From Microbacterium sp. SORGH_AS_0862 (GTDB lineage: Bacteria; Actinomycetota; Actinomycetes; Actinomycetales; Microbacteriaceae), in assembly GCF_030818795.1 (NCBI RefSeq), contig NZ_JAUTAY010000001.1:434001-498000 (forward strand): a stretch of DNA of 64,000 bases. Reading direction: 5' to 3'. The notes below the pieces were generated by a model, which ran no database searches, was not told where the DNA came from, and saw nothing but the letters and a program-made list of their open reading frames with translations. Below are positions 12,296 through 16,878 of the stretch, in pieces (the stretch's first letter is position 1; each line of letters starts with the position of its first letter). The position numbers and the translations under genes were made by a program.

Positions 12296-14398
12296 GTGAC
12301 CGACTCCGCCATCCCCGCACCCCCGCACGCCGCCCGAAAGGTCCGCTCCCGCTCGCACCACGGCGACGTGTTCGACGACCCGTACGAGTGGCTTCGCGAC
12401 AAGGACGATGCGAGCGTCGTGGCGCATATCGAGGCCGAGAACGCCTACACCGATGCGCGCACCGCGCACCTCGCGGGCCTGCGCGAGCAGATCTTCCAGG
12501 AGATCAAGGGGCGCACGCTCGAGACGGACCTCTCCGTGCCGACGCGCCGCGGCCAGTGGTGGTACTTCTCCCGCACCGAGGAGGGCAAGCAGTACGGCAT
12601 CCACTGTCGCGCACCGCTCGCCTCGCCCGACGACTGGACACCCCCCGTCCCCGAGGGCTCTCTCGACGGCGAAGAGGTGCTGCTCGACGGCAACGCGGAG
12701 GCCGACGGGGAGGAGTTCTTCTCCCTCGGCACCTTCGAGGTCTCCACAGACGGTCGGCTGCTGCTGTACGGCGTCGACACGTCAGGAGACGAGCGGTACA
12801 CGCTGCGCGTGCGCGACCTCGAGACGAGCACGACGCTGCCGGACGTCATCGAGGGCACATTCGCGGGCGCCTCGCTGTCGCCCGACGGGCGCTTCATCGT
12901 CTACTCGACCGTCGACGACGCGTGGCGCCCCGACAAGGTCTGGCTTCACGAACTGGGCACCCCGGTCGCCGACGACGCCCTGCTGTTCCACGAGAGCGAC
13001 GACCGCTTCTGGGTCGGCGCCGGATTCACCCGCAGCGACCGCTTCCTCGTGATCGGCGTCGGCTCCTCCATCACCTCCGAGGAGTGGCTGCTTCCGGCCG
13101 ACGATCTGCGCGGCGAGCCGCGCGTGATCTGGCCGCGCCGGGAGGGCGTCGAGTACGACAGCGACCACGCGGTGGTCGACGGCGAGGATGTGCTCTACAT
13201 CCTGCACAACGACCAGGCGGTGGACTTCGAGCTCGTTCGGGTGTCCGCATCCGATCCGCAGGGTGCGCGCGACGTCGTCGTGCCGCACCGGGGCGGCCGC
13301 CGCCTGCTGGGGCTGTCGACTTTCCGCGACTGGGCCGTGCTCGCGTACCGGCGCGAGGGACTGGCCCGACTCGGCATGCTGGACTACGCCGACGGCACAG
13401 TGGCCGAGGTCGAGTTCGACGAACCGCTCTATTCCGTCGGGACGGCCGGAAACCCCGAGTGGGCGCCTCCCCTCATCCGTCTGGGCTACGGCTCGTTCGT
13501 GACGCCGTCGACGGTCTTCGACTACGACCCTGCCACCGGCGAGCGCCTCGTGCGCAAGCAGCAGCCGGTGCTGGGCGGCTACGACAGCGCCGACTACGCC
13601 CAGGCCCGTGTCTGGGCCACCGCGCAGGACGGCACCGAGGTCCCCGTGTCGCTGGTGTGGAAGAGGTCGTTCGGGGATGCGGGGGCTGCGCCTCGTCCGG
13701 TGCATCTGTACGGTTACGGCTCGTACGAGCACTCCATAGAGCCCGCGTTCTCGGTGGCGCGCCTGTCGGAGCTCGATCGCGGCGTGATCTTCGCGGTCGC
13801 CCACGTGCGCGGCGGCGGCGAGATGGGCCGGGAGTGGTACGAGAACGGGAAGCTGCTGGCCAAGCGCAACACCTTCACCGACTTCGTCGACTGCGCCCTG
13901 CACCTGATCGGTCACGGCTACACGTCGCCCGATCTCCTCGTCGCGGAGGGCGGTTCGGCCGGCGGACTGCTGATGGGCGCCGTCGCGAACCTCGCGCCGG
14001 AGCTGTTCGCCGGCATCCTCGCCGACGTGCCGTTCGTGGACGCCCTGACGACGATCCTCGACCCCTCGCTCCCGCTGACGGTCATCGAGTGGGACGAGTG
14101 GGGCGACCCCCTGCATGATCCCGAGGTCTACGCCTACATGAAGTCCTACTCGCCGTACGAGAACGTGCGCGAGGGCGTGGCGTATCCCCGCATCCTGGCC
14201 GTCACCTCGTTCAACGACACCCGCGTGCTGTACGTGGAGCCCGCGAAGTGGGTGGCGCGGCTGCGGGAGGTCGGCGCGGATGCGCTGCTCAAGTGCGAGA
14301 TGGTCGCAGGGCACGGCGGCGTGAGCGGGCGGTACAACGCCTGGCGCGAGCGCGCGTACGAACAAGCCTGGATGCTGGACGTCCTCGGCCTCGCCTGA
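12296..14398 (+). CDS. ptrB: Oligopeptidase B (S9A serine peptidase)
   Basis: 700 residues. A seven-bladed propeller-type N-terminal domain (about residues 70-420) covers an alpha/beta-hydrolase domain. The triad is visible: Ser554 in GGSAGG, Asp641 in SFNDTRV and His673 in AGHGG. RGGGEMGREWYE precedes the nucleophile as in S9A enzymes. It cleaves short peptides after basic residues, or after Pro if it is a prolyl oligopeptidase; the sequence resembles oligopeptidase B more closely. No signal peptide, so cytoplasmic. Translation begins at a GTG 47 bases after the GMC gene. Confidence 0.9.
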   Translation: MTDSAIPAPPHAARKVRSRSHHGDVFDDPYEWLRDKDDASVVAHIEAENAYTDARTAHLAGLREQIFQEIKGRTLETDLSVPTRRGQWWYFSRTEEGKQYGIHCRAPLASPDDWTPPVPEGSLDGEEVLLDGNAEADGEEFFSLGTFEVSTDGRLLLYGVDTSGDERYTLRVRDLETSTTLPDVIEGTFAGASLSPDGRFIVYSTVDDAWRPDKVWLHELGTPVADDALLFHESDDRFWVGAGFTRSDRFLVIGVGSSITSEEWLLPADDLRGEPRVIWPRREGVEYDSDHAVVDGEDVLYILHNDQAVDFELVRVSASDPQGARDVVVPHRGGRRLLGLSTFRDWAVLAYRREGLARLGMLDYADGTVAEVEFDEPLYSVGTAGNPEWAPPLIRLGYGSFVTPSTVFDYDPATGERLVRKQQPVLGGYDSADYAQARVWATAQDGTEVPVSLVWKRSFGDAGAAPRPVHLYGYGSYEHSIEPAFSVARLSELDRGVIFAVAHVRGGGEMGREWYENGKLLAKRNTFTDFVDCALHLIGHGYTSPDLLVAEGGSAGGLLMGAVANLAPELFAGILADVPFVDALTTILDPSLPLTVIEWDEWGDPLHDPEVYAYMKSYSPYENVREGVAYPRILAVTSFNDTRVLYVEPAKWVARLREVGADALLKCEMVAGHGGVSGRYNAWRERAYEQAWMLDVLGLA

Positions 14399-14453: not shown

Positions 14454-14528
14454 CGTGTCCCCCTTCCCGCAGGGCATGTCCCACTTCCCGCACCTCTCGG
14501 CACCGAAAGTTGCGGCAAGTGGGACATG
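14454..14528. repeat. Left composite palindromic repeat
   Basis: Two reverse-complement units lie at 14454-14471 and 14475-14492 and one direct unit at 14511-14528. The second and third form a near-perfect 18-bp hairpin with one mismatch. The 18-base loop contains TCGGCACCGAA. The unit ends 91 bases before the nuclease start and begins 55 bases after the oligopeptidase stop. Confidence 0.85.
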
Positions 14529-14619
14529 CTTGCCGGAAGGCTCCTCCACAGGCTGGGTGAGAGCCGCGAACGCTGTGCGCAGCCCCTGCCCGACGGTCCG
14601 CGCGCCGGATGCTCGGAGT

Positions 14620-15528
14620 ATGTCGCCGGCCGATCCCCTTCCCCCGGACCTTCCGCCTCACTTCGCCGTCGCCGACGCGGTGGCGCTCGGGCACTCGCCT
14701 CACCGGCTTCGCCGGTCAGCGTTGCGCGTCCCCTATCGCGGCGTGCGTTCTGTTGCGGATGCGGCTGCGAGAGACGACATCCATGGGCGGTGCGAGGAGT
14801 ACGCGCCGCGGATGCGGCCGTGGCAGTTCTTCGGAGGAGAGACGGCGCTCGCGCTCTACGGGGCACCTGTCCCCGAATGGCCCCATGCCACGGGCATACA
14901 CGTCTGCGCCCACCGGCCTGCGAGAGAGCCGCGCATCGCCGGCGTCACCGGTCACCGTCTTCAGCACCGCGAACCGGCGACGCGCGAGCACGCGGGACTC
15001 CCGGTCGAGCACCCGGCACGTGCATGGCGCCAGGCCGCCACCACGTGGCGGATCGACGACCTCATCTGCGCGGCGGAGTTTCTCATATCGGGATCGCGGC
15101 CGCTCTCGAGCGCGGCTGAGTTGAGGGACGAGATCGAAGCGATGGGCGACGTGCGAGGCCGCCTCTCCGCCGCCCTACGAGATGTGCGCTCCGGCGCCCG
15201 CTCGCCCCGAGAGACGCGGCTGCGTCTGCTGCTCCAGCGAGGCGGTCTCCCCGAGCCCGACATCAACTGGACGCTCTACGACCCACGCGGCCGGCATATC
15301 GCCGAACTCGACCTCGCATACCGGCGTTGGCGTGTCGGCGTCGAGTACGACGGGCGTGTGCACGCGGAGGATGCGCGCCAGTTCGCAAAGGACGCGGACC
15401 GCTGGGACGCGATCCGCGCCGAGGGCTGGGAGCTCGTCCGCATCCTGAATCACCACATGCGTGGCGACGGCCGTGTGGCGGTCGACAAGGTCCGGCAGGC
15501 CCTCGCGCGCGCCGGCTGGCGGCAATGA
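14620..15528 (+). CDS. DUF559 (Vsr-like PD-(D/E)XK) domain protein
   Basis: 302 residues. The C-terminal third has the DUF559/Vsr-like nuclease pattern: SPRETRLRLLL, then AELDLAY, then VGVEYDG, then DRWDAIRAEGWELVRI. These supply the E..D..ExD acidic residues of a PD-(D/E)XK endonuclease. The N-terminal two thirds resemble the AbiEi-like region often found with DUF559 in actinobacteria (WQFFGGETALALYGAPVP), which is linked to type IV toxin-antitoxin systems. It may nick or cut DNA, but substrate and partner are unknown. ATG at 14620 follows GGAG closely. Mirrored palindromic repeats flank it. Confidence 0.8.
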   Translation: MSPADPLPPDLPPHFAVADAVALGHSPHRLRRSALRVPYRGVRSVADAAARDDIHGRCEEYAPRMRPWQFFGGETALALYGAPVPEWPHATGIHVCAHRPAREPRIAGVTGHRLQHREPATREHAGLPVEHPARAWRQAATTWRIDDLICAAEFLISGSRPLSSAAELRDEIEAMGDVRGRLSAALRDVRSGARSPRETRLRLLLQRGGLPEPDINWTLYDPRGRHIAELDLAYRRWRVGVEYDGRVHAEDARQFAKDADRWDAIRAEGWELVRILNHHMRGDGRVAVDKVRQALARAGWRQ

Positions 15529-15537
15529 CCCGCCATC

Positions 15538-15612
15538 CATGTCCCAATTGCCGCAGGATTCGGCTGCCGAAACTGCGGCAAGTGGGACATGATCTGCGGC
15601 AAGTGGGACACG
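15538..15612. repeat. Right composite palindromic repeat
   Basis: One reverse-complement unit (15538-15555) and two direct units (15574-15591 and 15595-15612) of the 18-mer found on the left side. Spacing mirrors the left copy exactly. The repeat begins 9 bases after the nuclease stop codon. Confidence 0.85.
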
Positions 15613-15710
15613 CCGGGACCTCCGGCGTGAGGAGACGACGCCGTAACGCAGGAGATCCCCGCCCGTCAGGATGATCCGACGCGGATCGTCCTGTGGGACG
15701 GAGATCTCCT
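15609..15710. terminator. Two hairpins between the convergent DUF559 and pfkA genes
   Basis: A perfect 8-bp hairpin (CACGCCGG 15609-15616 with 15622-15629) is followed by a nested structure. There the outer arms are AGGAGATC (15650-15657) and GATCTCCT (15703-15710), and the inner 11-bp arms are 15668-15678 and 15682-15692 with one mismatch. It lies between two converging genes, so transcription termination in both directions is the likely role. Confidence 0.55.
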
Positions 15711-15731
15711 GGCGAAGGGGTGTGCGGCGGC

Positions 15732-16760
15732 TCAGCCGAAGAGCGCAGCGGCCTCTTCGTAGCGGTACTGGGGAACCGTGTTCAGCTCGCCGAGCGCTTC
15801 CGCGAACGGCACGCGCACGATGTCGGTGCCCCGCATGGCGACCATCTGACCCCATGCGCCGTCGACGATCGCGTCGGCGGCGTGCAAGCCCAGGCGGGTG
15901 GCGAGCACGCGGTCGAAGGCGGAGGGAGAGCCACCGCGCTGGATGTGGCCGAGCACCGTCGCGCGGGTCTCGATGCCGGTGATGCGCTCGATCTCCGGCG
16001 CGAGGACCTCGCTGATGCCGCCGAGACGCGGTCGGTTGAAGGCGTCGAGGCCCTTGTCGCTGAAGGCCTCGTCCATGCCCGTGAGCTTGAAGCCCTCCGA
16101 GACGACGACGAGCGGCGCGCGGCCGCGGTCGTGTGCGCGGCTGACCTGGTCGACGATCTCGTCGATCGACATCGGGACCTCGGGGATGCAGATCACGTGC
16201 GCGCCCGCGGCGATTCCCGCGTGCAGTGCGATCCAGCCCACGTGGCGGCCCATGACCTCGGCGACCATGCAGCGCTGGTGCGAGTCACCGGTGGTGCGCA
16301 GCCGGTCCATGGCGTCGGTGGCGATGTTGACGGCCGTGTCGAAGCCGAACGAGTAGTCGGTCGCCCGCAGGTCGTTGTCGATCGTCTTGGGGACGCCGAG
16401 CACGTTGATGCCGTCGTTCGCGAGGCGGTTGGCGGCCGCCAGCGTGCCCTCACCGCCGATCGCGATGATGCCGTCGATGCGGTGCCCGTACAGCGTCTTC
16501 GCGATGTTCTCGGCGCCGCCGCGAGGACCCTCGTAGGGGTTCGTACGGCTGGTGCCGAGGATCGTGCCGCCCACCTTCGACAGACCCTTGACCTCGTGCC
16601 GCGTCAACGGGAAGAAGTCCCCGTCGACCACACCGCGCCATCCGTCACGGATGCCGACGAACTCGAGGTCGTAGGTCGTGGTGCCCTTGAGCACGACGCC
16701 GCGGATGACCGCGTTCAGTCCGGGGCAATCGCCGCCGCTGGTGAGAATACCGATCTTCAT
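15732..16760 (-). CDS. pfkA: 6-phosphofructokinase
   Basis: 342 residues. It phosphorylates fructose 6-phosphate to the 1,6-bisphosphate in glycolysis. Motifs: LTSGGDCPGLNA at the N terminus, AIGGEGT (a glycine where PPi-dependent enzymes have aspartate), and PKTIDNDL with the catalytic TIDxD. The GGEG plus PKTIDND combination is the actinobacterial group III pattern, and ATP is the expected donor. The start ATG at 16760 fits the conserved N terminus. It ends close to the hairpins at 15609-15710. Confidence 0.93.
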   Translation of the reverse strand: MKIGILTSGGDCPGLNAVIRGVVLKGTTTYDLEFVGIRDGWRGVVDGDFFPLTRHEVKGLSKVGGTILGTSRTNPYEGPRGGAENIAKTLYGHRIDGIIAIGGEGTLAAANRLANDGINVLGVPKTIDNDLRATDYSFGFDTAVNIATDAMDRLRTTGDSHQRCMVAEVMGRHVGWIALHAGIAAGAHVICIPEVPMSIDEIVDQVSRAHDRGRAPLVVVSEGFKLTGMDEAFSDKGLDAFNRPRLGGISEVLAPEIERITGIETRATVLGHIQRGGSPSAFDRVLATRLGLHAADAIVDGAWGQMVAMRGTDIVRVPFAEALGELNTVPQYRYEEAAALFG

Positions 16761-16878
16761 GCTGGAGTCCCTGCTTTCCGGGTGATGGTGCTCCGGGGAA
16801 TGGGGCGACGCTGCCTCACCGACACTATCGCCCCGGAGCCCCCGGGCGCACACCCGGGGCCGTGCATATGGATGCGGG

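Follow-up and report, generated by a model that had tools for sequence, protein, structure and literature searches.

Why should a nuclease gene of an actinobacterium stand between two arrays of one repeat, each array the mirror image of the other? We encountered this arrangement in a 64,000-nucleotide (nt) stretch of Microbacterium sp. SORGH_AS_0862 (contig NZ_JAUTAY010000001.1, positions 434,001–498,000; hereafter the window), where a gene of the DUF559 nuclease family carries copies of one 18-mer on either side. A preliminary description of the locus had counted three copies per side in mirrored order, with an inner pair that folds as a hairpin. Searching the 64-kb window with up to three mismatches returned six copies, every one at the DUF559 gene (expectation 0.06), and six were reached by none of 100 shuffles of the window. 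The count therefore holds at this tolerance, but exact matches account for only two of the six copies, and the leftmost copy matches poorly. The order and gaps are mirrored as described (3 and 18 nt on the left, 18 and 3 nt on the right, 75 nt on each side), each array consisting of a core hairpin with arms 18 nt apart and one outer arm copy at 3 nt, and both cores fold stably (Table 1). On balance we lean towards a partnership in which each gene of this type and its own palindromic repeat would form a matched pair that maintains or spreads elements resembling REPINs, the hairpin-forming doublets of repetitive extragenic palindromic (REP) sequences. Several features can be read directly from the DNA: bracketing of the genes, matching of gene and repeat, dispersed copies of three repeat families, fixed spots that hold differing cassettes or lack one, hairpins that one of two related species has and the other lacks, and purifying selection on the DUF559 gene.

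The encoded protein matched PF04480 (DUF559) with 22.6 bits, over a cut-off of 20.6. Pfam gave DUF559/MTES_1575 only, with PF18741 under its cut-off, and a scan against ncbifam produced only sub-cut-off matches. Structure prediction points to two parts, an AbiEi-like part at approximately residues 3–190, which includes a predicted winged helix-turn-helix (wHTH) at residues 1–52, and a Vsr/I-Bth0305I-type nuclease at approximately residues 193–302. The AbiEi antitoxin fold of AbiE systems is found in this model, and the Vsr-like domain has its conserved acidic and histidine residues. The AbiEi profile of PADLOC matched the window protein weakly (E 0.0027) and a paralogue, L032, more strongly (8.9e-9). 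We thus regard the protein as a predicted fusion of an AbiEi antitoxin-like part to a Vsr/I-Bth0305I-type nuclease, and both assignments of the preliminary description, a Vsr-like nuclease and an AbiEi-like N terminus, found support.

Bracketing by palindromes extends to other DUF559 genes of the same genome (G000; 3.505 Mb, one contig). PF04480 matched seven genes, six of which are bracketed by palindromic repeats, with six different repeats. The window gene itself is single-copy, with sequence-found paralogues at 51% and 36% identity. Of these two paralogues, L032 is bracketed by palindromes of the GTGTCTCAC..TTCACG type and L033 by those of the CCTGTCACAGATCG type, and L063, L064 and L066 have three further repeats (L066 judged by eye). 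The seventh match, L065 (G000:232717-232809), has no common flanking repeat by eye. It resembles what we take, from the motif, to be a canonical Vsr gene, and so offers a natural contrast: a Vsr-like gene in the same genome without common flanks by eye.

To score bracketing, we took the best ungapped match between the left and right 400-nt flanks, with a threshold of 17. This threshold was reached by 22 of 34 loci (L031–L064) and by none of 148 control windows of matching geometry drawn from the 64-kb window. In a genus set that overlaps these loci (80 named loci, nearly all Microbacterium; 77 plus the window locus scored), 48 of 78 reached 17, as did 39 of 62 loci from outside the genus, which span 15 families including its own; 11 families had at least one positive. 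Among 1200 cross-family control pairs four reached 17, two owing to a common neighbouring coding gene and two with exactly 17. Windows moved 650–1000 nt outwards gave 0/75 in Microbacterium and 0/60 outside the genus, compared with 44/75 and 38/60 for 350-nt flanks of the same loci. Hairpins were almost gone from the outward-moved windows, a contrast that is partly one of coding versus intergenic DNA because the outer windows are probably mostly coding. Within Microbacterium, a 21-nt arm period was present on 41 of 150 flank sides and 2 of 150 outer ones. A class-level set, chosen by DUF559 score and including many loci of other architectures, had 28 loci with usable flanks, of which 8 scored at least 15 and 7 at least 16; the maximum among 270 cross-locus controls was 15. 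Bracketing of DUF559 genes by their own palindromes is thus general across many actinobacteria, and DUF559 genes of relatives often carry such flanks, as the preliminary description required, with each clade having its own repeat. The family profile recovered a homologue from 211 of the 296 actinobacterial genomes sampled; among 99 Microbacterium genomes, a protein search detected one in 93. Chance or a G+C artefact as the source of the repeats was ruled out by the shuffles, control windows and cross-family pairs.

The repeats also go with the proteins. Across 83 loci, we compared the overlap of 9-mers common to the left and right flanks with protein identity, and repeat and protein similarity were correlated (Mantel rho 0.50; 0 of 999 permutations). 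At least three common 9-mers were shared by none of 464 pairs below 45% identity and by 42 of 74 pairs above 75%, and each of 17 paralogue pairs within one genome had at most one. Repeat similarity goes with protein similarity rather than with locus. By domain (72 loci), the correlation with the repeat was 0.54 for the C-terminal portion of the AbiEi-like part (AbiEi-C) and 0.36 for the nuclease. The hairpin pattern of the window 18-mer family (fam1) was found in 23 of 99 Microbacterium genomes, and its reversed control in 0 of 99. Defining clade-A genes as those with E<1e-80 in the protein search (a cut set after the data had been seen, and tallied by hand), we found the pattern in 19 of 26 clade-A genomes and 4 of 73 others, these being related and hence non-independent genomes.

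In keeping with the preliminary description, the 18-mer occurs elsewhere in the genome, with 47 matches at up to three mismatches, compared with 12 for a reversed control. Apart from three isolated matches with three mismatches, these fall into 13 arrays, two of them at the gene and 11 dispersed. The arm-18-arm core is common to all 13, and in 12 of them tandem copies are spaced 3 nt apart; nine have extra copies on only one side of the core, three on both and one on neither. Most of the elements are thus polar, and the arrangement at the gene is mirrored because two polar elements point opposite ways around it. Two other families are dispersed as well: fam2 has 20 exact hairpins (reversed control 0), 18 of them away from its gene, and fam3 has 79 motif matches (control 0), most of them not at its gene. 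Counting fam3 by motif matches, inverted doublets are dispersed across the genome as in REPIN systems, and the label REPIN-like proved apt anatomically, given the paired inverted repeats, dispersed copies and cognate gene. The inner arms of 58 fam1-type hairpins had a complementarity of 0.707, compared with 0.458 after shuffling (maximum 0.519), a figure inflated by clade structure. Open reading frames (ORFs) cover dispersed copies to the same extent as random places, against the high ORF background at this G+C. Copies of the fam3 motif also recur with a regular 83-nt period at G000:3363177-3363645, far from the cognate gene.

Comparisons between species revealed turnover of whole cassettes. 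The window gene lies between genes for a prolyl oligopeptidase and a 6-phosphofructokinase, presumably ptrB and pfkA, and we followed this spot through the closest genomes, in which 30 ptrB loci were compared. Eight of the 30 had a clade-A gene, whole or fragmentary, downstream of ptrB. Another DUF559 gene was present in 12 of the remaining 22, nine of which scored at least 17 and 11 at least 14 (flanks of 146–400 nt, no separate control); their repeats include the CAGGAGATC../..GATCTCCTG type. No AbiEi-DUF559 gene was detected by profile at this spot in the other ten loci. In nine of these ten, ptrB and pfkA are 25–303 nt apart, and a palindrome was evident by eye in at least three of the nine gaps (G065, G052 and G050), the one in G065 being a lone CAGGAGATC-type hairpin. 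Depending on the species, a single intergenic spot thus contains one nuclease gene or another, with repeats that differ likewise, or no such gene, and the gene-free sites sought by the preliminary description do exist. The gap in G052 (L115) carries a long TGAACTTCCGGTTCACAC-type palindrome, which may be a lone element of yet another family. The tenth locus (L102, G085) contains an insert of 1.3 kb that, by eye, has a palindrome at either end; its gene, not recognised by the AbiEi-DUF559 profile, may represent another family with the same flank style. Elsewhere, cassettes of two families (L293 of f2; L313 and L316 of f26) lie beside the same coding gene, which is possibly a second common landing spot.

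The fam2 site gave a similar picture. In the relative G035 its neighbours are 90% and 93% identical to those in G000, yet the gene between them is not the same one (43% identity) and its palindromes are, by eye, of the TCGAGGGACCCG type, a difference of the whole cassette. Exact fam2 hairpins numbered five in G035 and 0 in 97 other genomes. Seven fam2 places could be aligned to G035 across the hairpin; four are missing there, two are kept and one (L240) is unsettled. At the four missing places G000 is longer by about 65–210 nt, which in this two-genome comparison may reflect either gain or loss. At one place (L021; G000:1582007-1582152) a fam2 hairpin lies 33 nt from a fam1 array, and G035 has the fam1 array only.

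How might such a pair work? We propose that the arms of the repeat are bound by the AbiEi-like part, as AbiEi antitoxins bind inverted repeats, perhaps with one protomer per arm, and that the Vsr/I-Bth0305I-type domain introduces a nick or cut in or close to the palindrome, possibly once the latter is extruded as a hairpin. We infer one protomer per arm and palindrome cutting because the AbiEi-like part is fused to a nuclease, the tandem and inverted arms lie 3 nt apart and the period in Microbacterium is 21 nt. Repair or copying around the breaks could then uphold and slowly multiply REPIN-like elements in the chromosome, or lead to their loss, and hairpin-gene-hairpin cassettes might occasionally be swapped or removed at tolerated intergenic spots. 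Autoregulation through the upstream array may be a second function. For the broader proposal that AbiEi-Vsr fusions form a second, independently evolved REPIN-type system, recognising and propagating their own palindromes across many actinobacterial families, with several pairs of non-overlapping specificity per chromosome and cassette turnover at fixed spots, we judge the chances evenly balanced.

Several observations weigh against the proposed partnership. The wHTH had a correlation with the repeat of only 0.11, which counts against a simple model of the wHTH reading the repeat. Fam1-type hairpins occur without a clade-A gene in G027 (four), G011 (three) and G049 (three), and with only a fragment of one in G016 (four), and the pattern is absent from 7 of 26 clade-A genomes, one of which (G059, L052) has a repeat with a differing core. 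The score threshold was missed by 30 of 78 Microbacterium and 23 of 62 other loci, and the 21-nt period was not seen outside Microbacterium (two sides versus two). For fam2, inner-arm complementarity (0.569) showed no clear excess over shuffled arms (mean 0.524, maximum 0.613). Ten of the 11 dispersed fam1 arrays were compared with G035, and all ten are syntenic there, indicating low activity. Positive genomes hold 1–36 exact fam1-type hairpins, far fewer than the hundreds reported for REPs (PMC3116915). Of the terminal inverted repeats and target-site duplications expected of an insertion sequence or miniature inverted-repeat transposable element, inverted arrays were observed, and no duplication was recognisable at the four present/absent fam2 places. 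Finally, with intact sites on its flanks the gene would be at risk from the nuclease that it encodes, unless cleavage requires a special state of the DNA.

Other explanations start from the same arrays. An AbiEi-like part could repress its own promoter through the inverted repeats, the downstream and dispersed copies being by-products or a regulon. One array does end 91 nt upstream of the chosen start codon, cognate specificity would be expected, and AbiEi and Rv2827c are described in PMC7319586 as repressing their own promoters through inverted repeats, 3 bp apart in AbiEi. However, a like array follows the stop codon, 11 fam1 arrays, 18 fam2 hairpins and most of the 79 fam3 matches lie elsewhere, and both the conserved nuclease domain and the cassette differences go unexplained, so we consider autoregulation alone unlikely. 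A homing-like selfish gene, whose nuclease cuts solo hairpins so that the cassette is copied in by recombination between palindromes, strikes us as somewhat more doubtful still. Homing genes normally destroy their own target, whereas here the repeats persist on both sides; moreover, the window gene is single-copy, its next paralogue is only 51% identical, and no insertion event was directly observed.

We give little credence to the idea that the hairpins are bidirectional transcription ends at which nuclease genes merely land. The window cassette does lie between convergent genes, some gene-free gaps at the spot hold palindromes, and at two polymorphic places the species-specific stretch starts, by eye, right after a stop-like TGA; yet the repeat sequence tracks the protein and changes along with the gene at one spot, and random windows of the same geometry lacked common flanks (0/148). 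Phage defence, with repeats that mark self DNA or nuclease sites on invading DNA, could draw on the restriction-like nuclease domain and on the weak AbiEi match, which came from a defence library. Relatives, though, were found by tblastn (E<=1e-5) in only 1 record among 50,697 from phages and 3 among 72,556 from plasmids, 0 of 29 candidates in viral contigs were confirmed, fam1-type hairpins appeared in 10 viral-contig stretches, and the window gene has housekeeping neighbours and no second gene between its arrays; a defence role is accordingly very improbable. Among the roles raised in the preliminary description, a nuclease-driven repeat family or homing-like element fits best, and defence finds little support. 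Carriage as phage or plasmid cargo was also considered and had little support, with few relatives in phage or plasmid records or viral contigs.

The nuclease–palindrome partnership that we favour recalls the REP-associated tyrosine transposase (RAYT) and its REPINs. To our knowledge, RAYT is the only well-described REP partner. In this system, according to PMC3116915, a different repeat cluster lies beside each enzyme gene, inverted doublets are dispersed, and long gene–repeat co-evolution is proposed for elements dependent on a chromosomal gene. Many of the DUF559 genes are likewise flanked by their own palindromic repeats, with REPIN-like doublets dispersed. Unlike RAYT, which is a Y1 HUH transposase, the enzyme is by Pfam and predicted structure a nuclease of AbiEi-Vsr type; neither a GTAG nor a CGTC tag was seen by eye at the palindrome foot in the two window arrays, copy number is lower than for REPINs, and in Microbacterium the arms are often tandem at 21 nt. 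PMC3733652 names RAYT as the described enzyme partner of bacterial REPs and leaves some families partnerless, including dispersed CGTC-tagged REPs without an adjacent RAYT and with no known transposase; those differ from the DUF559-linked palindromes in host and tag.

Comparison with other systems gave further differences. According to PMC7319586, the inverted repeats that Streptococcus agalactiae AbiEi binds in pairs measure 23 bp and are separated by 3 bp, and neither it nor Mycobacterium tuberculosis Rv2827c binds the other's repeats. Unlike an AbiE type IV toxin–antitoxin system, the genes here have an extra nuclease domain as well as repeats that flank them on either side and recur elsewhere in the genome, and at the window locus no AbiEii toxin gene is adjacent. 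The substrates of Vsr are T:G mismatches at methylated motifs, which arise by 5mC deamination and which the enzyme nicks, and the predicted likeness of the window protein to it is one of fold only. I-Bth0305I is a homing enzyme; the window gene has a whole gene as neighbour on each side, with repeats on either flank, and it neither lies within an intron or intein nor seems to interrupt its own target. The accessible portions of papers on Vsr/I-Bth0305I nucleases, including the DUF559 protein VsrA of Caulobacter, make no mention of flanking palindromes. Among open-licence papers (bioRxiv outside), we found no report, in the text available, of DUF559 genes with gene-specific flanking palindromes, and no paper joining AbiEi with DUF559. 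The locus is thus not RAYT/REPIN by membership, not an AbiE pair and not a standard homing gene. The bracketing and the dispersed copies suggest an undescribed enzyme–repeat partnership, like RAYT/REPIN in its working but with an unrelated enzyme, and we rate it as a new kind that would operate like a REPIN system. If so, the part of RAYT would seem to fall, in actinobacteria, to a restriction-fold nuclease fused to a domain of a kind that binds inverted repeats, many dispersed palindromes would be explained, and the DNA target of a nuclease family might be readable from its own flanks. As homologues occur in 211 of 296 genomes, a role would thereby also be assigned to DUF559, a widespread but uncharacterised domain.

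Table 1. Features of the DUF559 locus, in window positions.
Feature	Position	Strand	Details
Left neighbour, prolyl oligopeptidase gene	12296..14398	+	Pfam
Left array	14454..14528		75 nt: rc (reverse complement), 3 nt, rc, 18 nt, direct
18-mer copy	14454-14471	-	3 mismatches, outermost left, poor
Left hairpin, REPIN-like core	14475..14528		single-stranded DNA (ssDNA) minimum free energy (MFE) -18.9 kcal/mol, z -5.86
18-mer copy	14475-14492	-	1 mismatch
18-mer copy	14511-14528	+	0 mismatches
AbiEi-like + Vsr/I-Bth0305I-type DUF559 gene (predicted)	14620..15528	+	909 nt, 302 amino acids; start codon picked by eye
Right array	15538..15612		75 nt: rc, 18 nt, direct, 3 nt, direct
Right hairpin, REPIN-like core	15538..15591		ssDNA MFE -26.7 kcal/mol, z -10.34
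18-mer copy	15538-15555	-	1 mismatch
18-mer copy	15574-15591	+	0 mismatches
18-mer copy	15595-15612	+	1 mismatch
Hairpin of other type, CAGGAGATC.../...GATCTCCTG	15649..15711		ssDNA z -6.26
Right neighbour, 6-phosphofructokinase gene	15732..16853	-	Pfam

A known RNA element was ruled out at the locus, as Rfam gave nothing above its curated thresholds, only sub-threshold miRNA-like hairpins and mraW. Two contigs labelled Stenotrophomonas and Planococcus (L174, L225) carry Microbacterium-like genes, which are probably assembly contamination. The last hairpin in Table 1 is a nested palindrome, unrelated to the 18-mer, that lies beside the fam1 cassette with no cognate gene adjoining. In other species, hairpins of its type flank different DUF559 genes at this spot, and the one in the window is possibly a relic of an earlier cassette.
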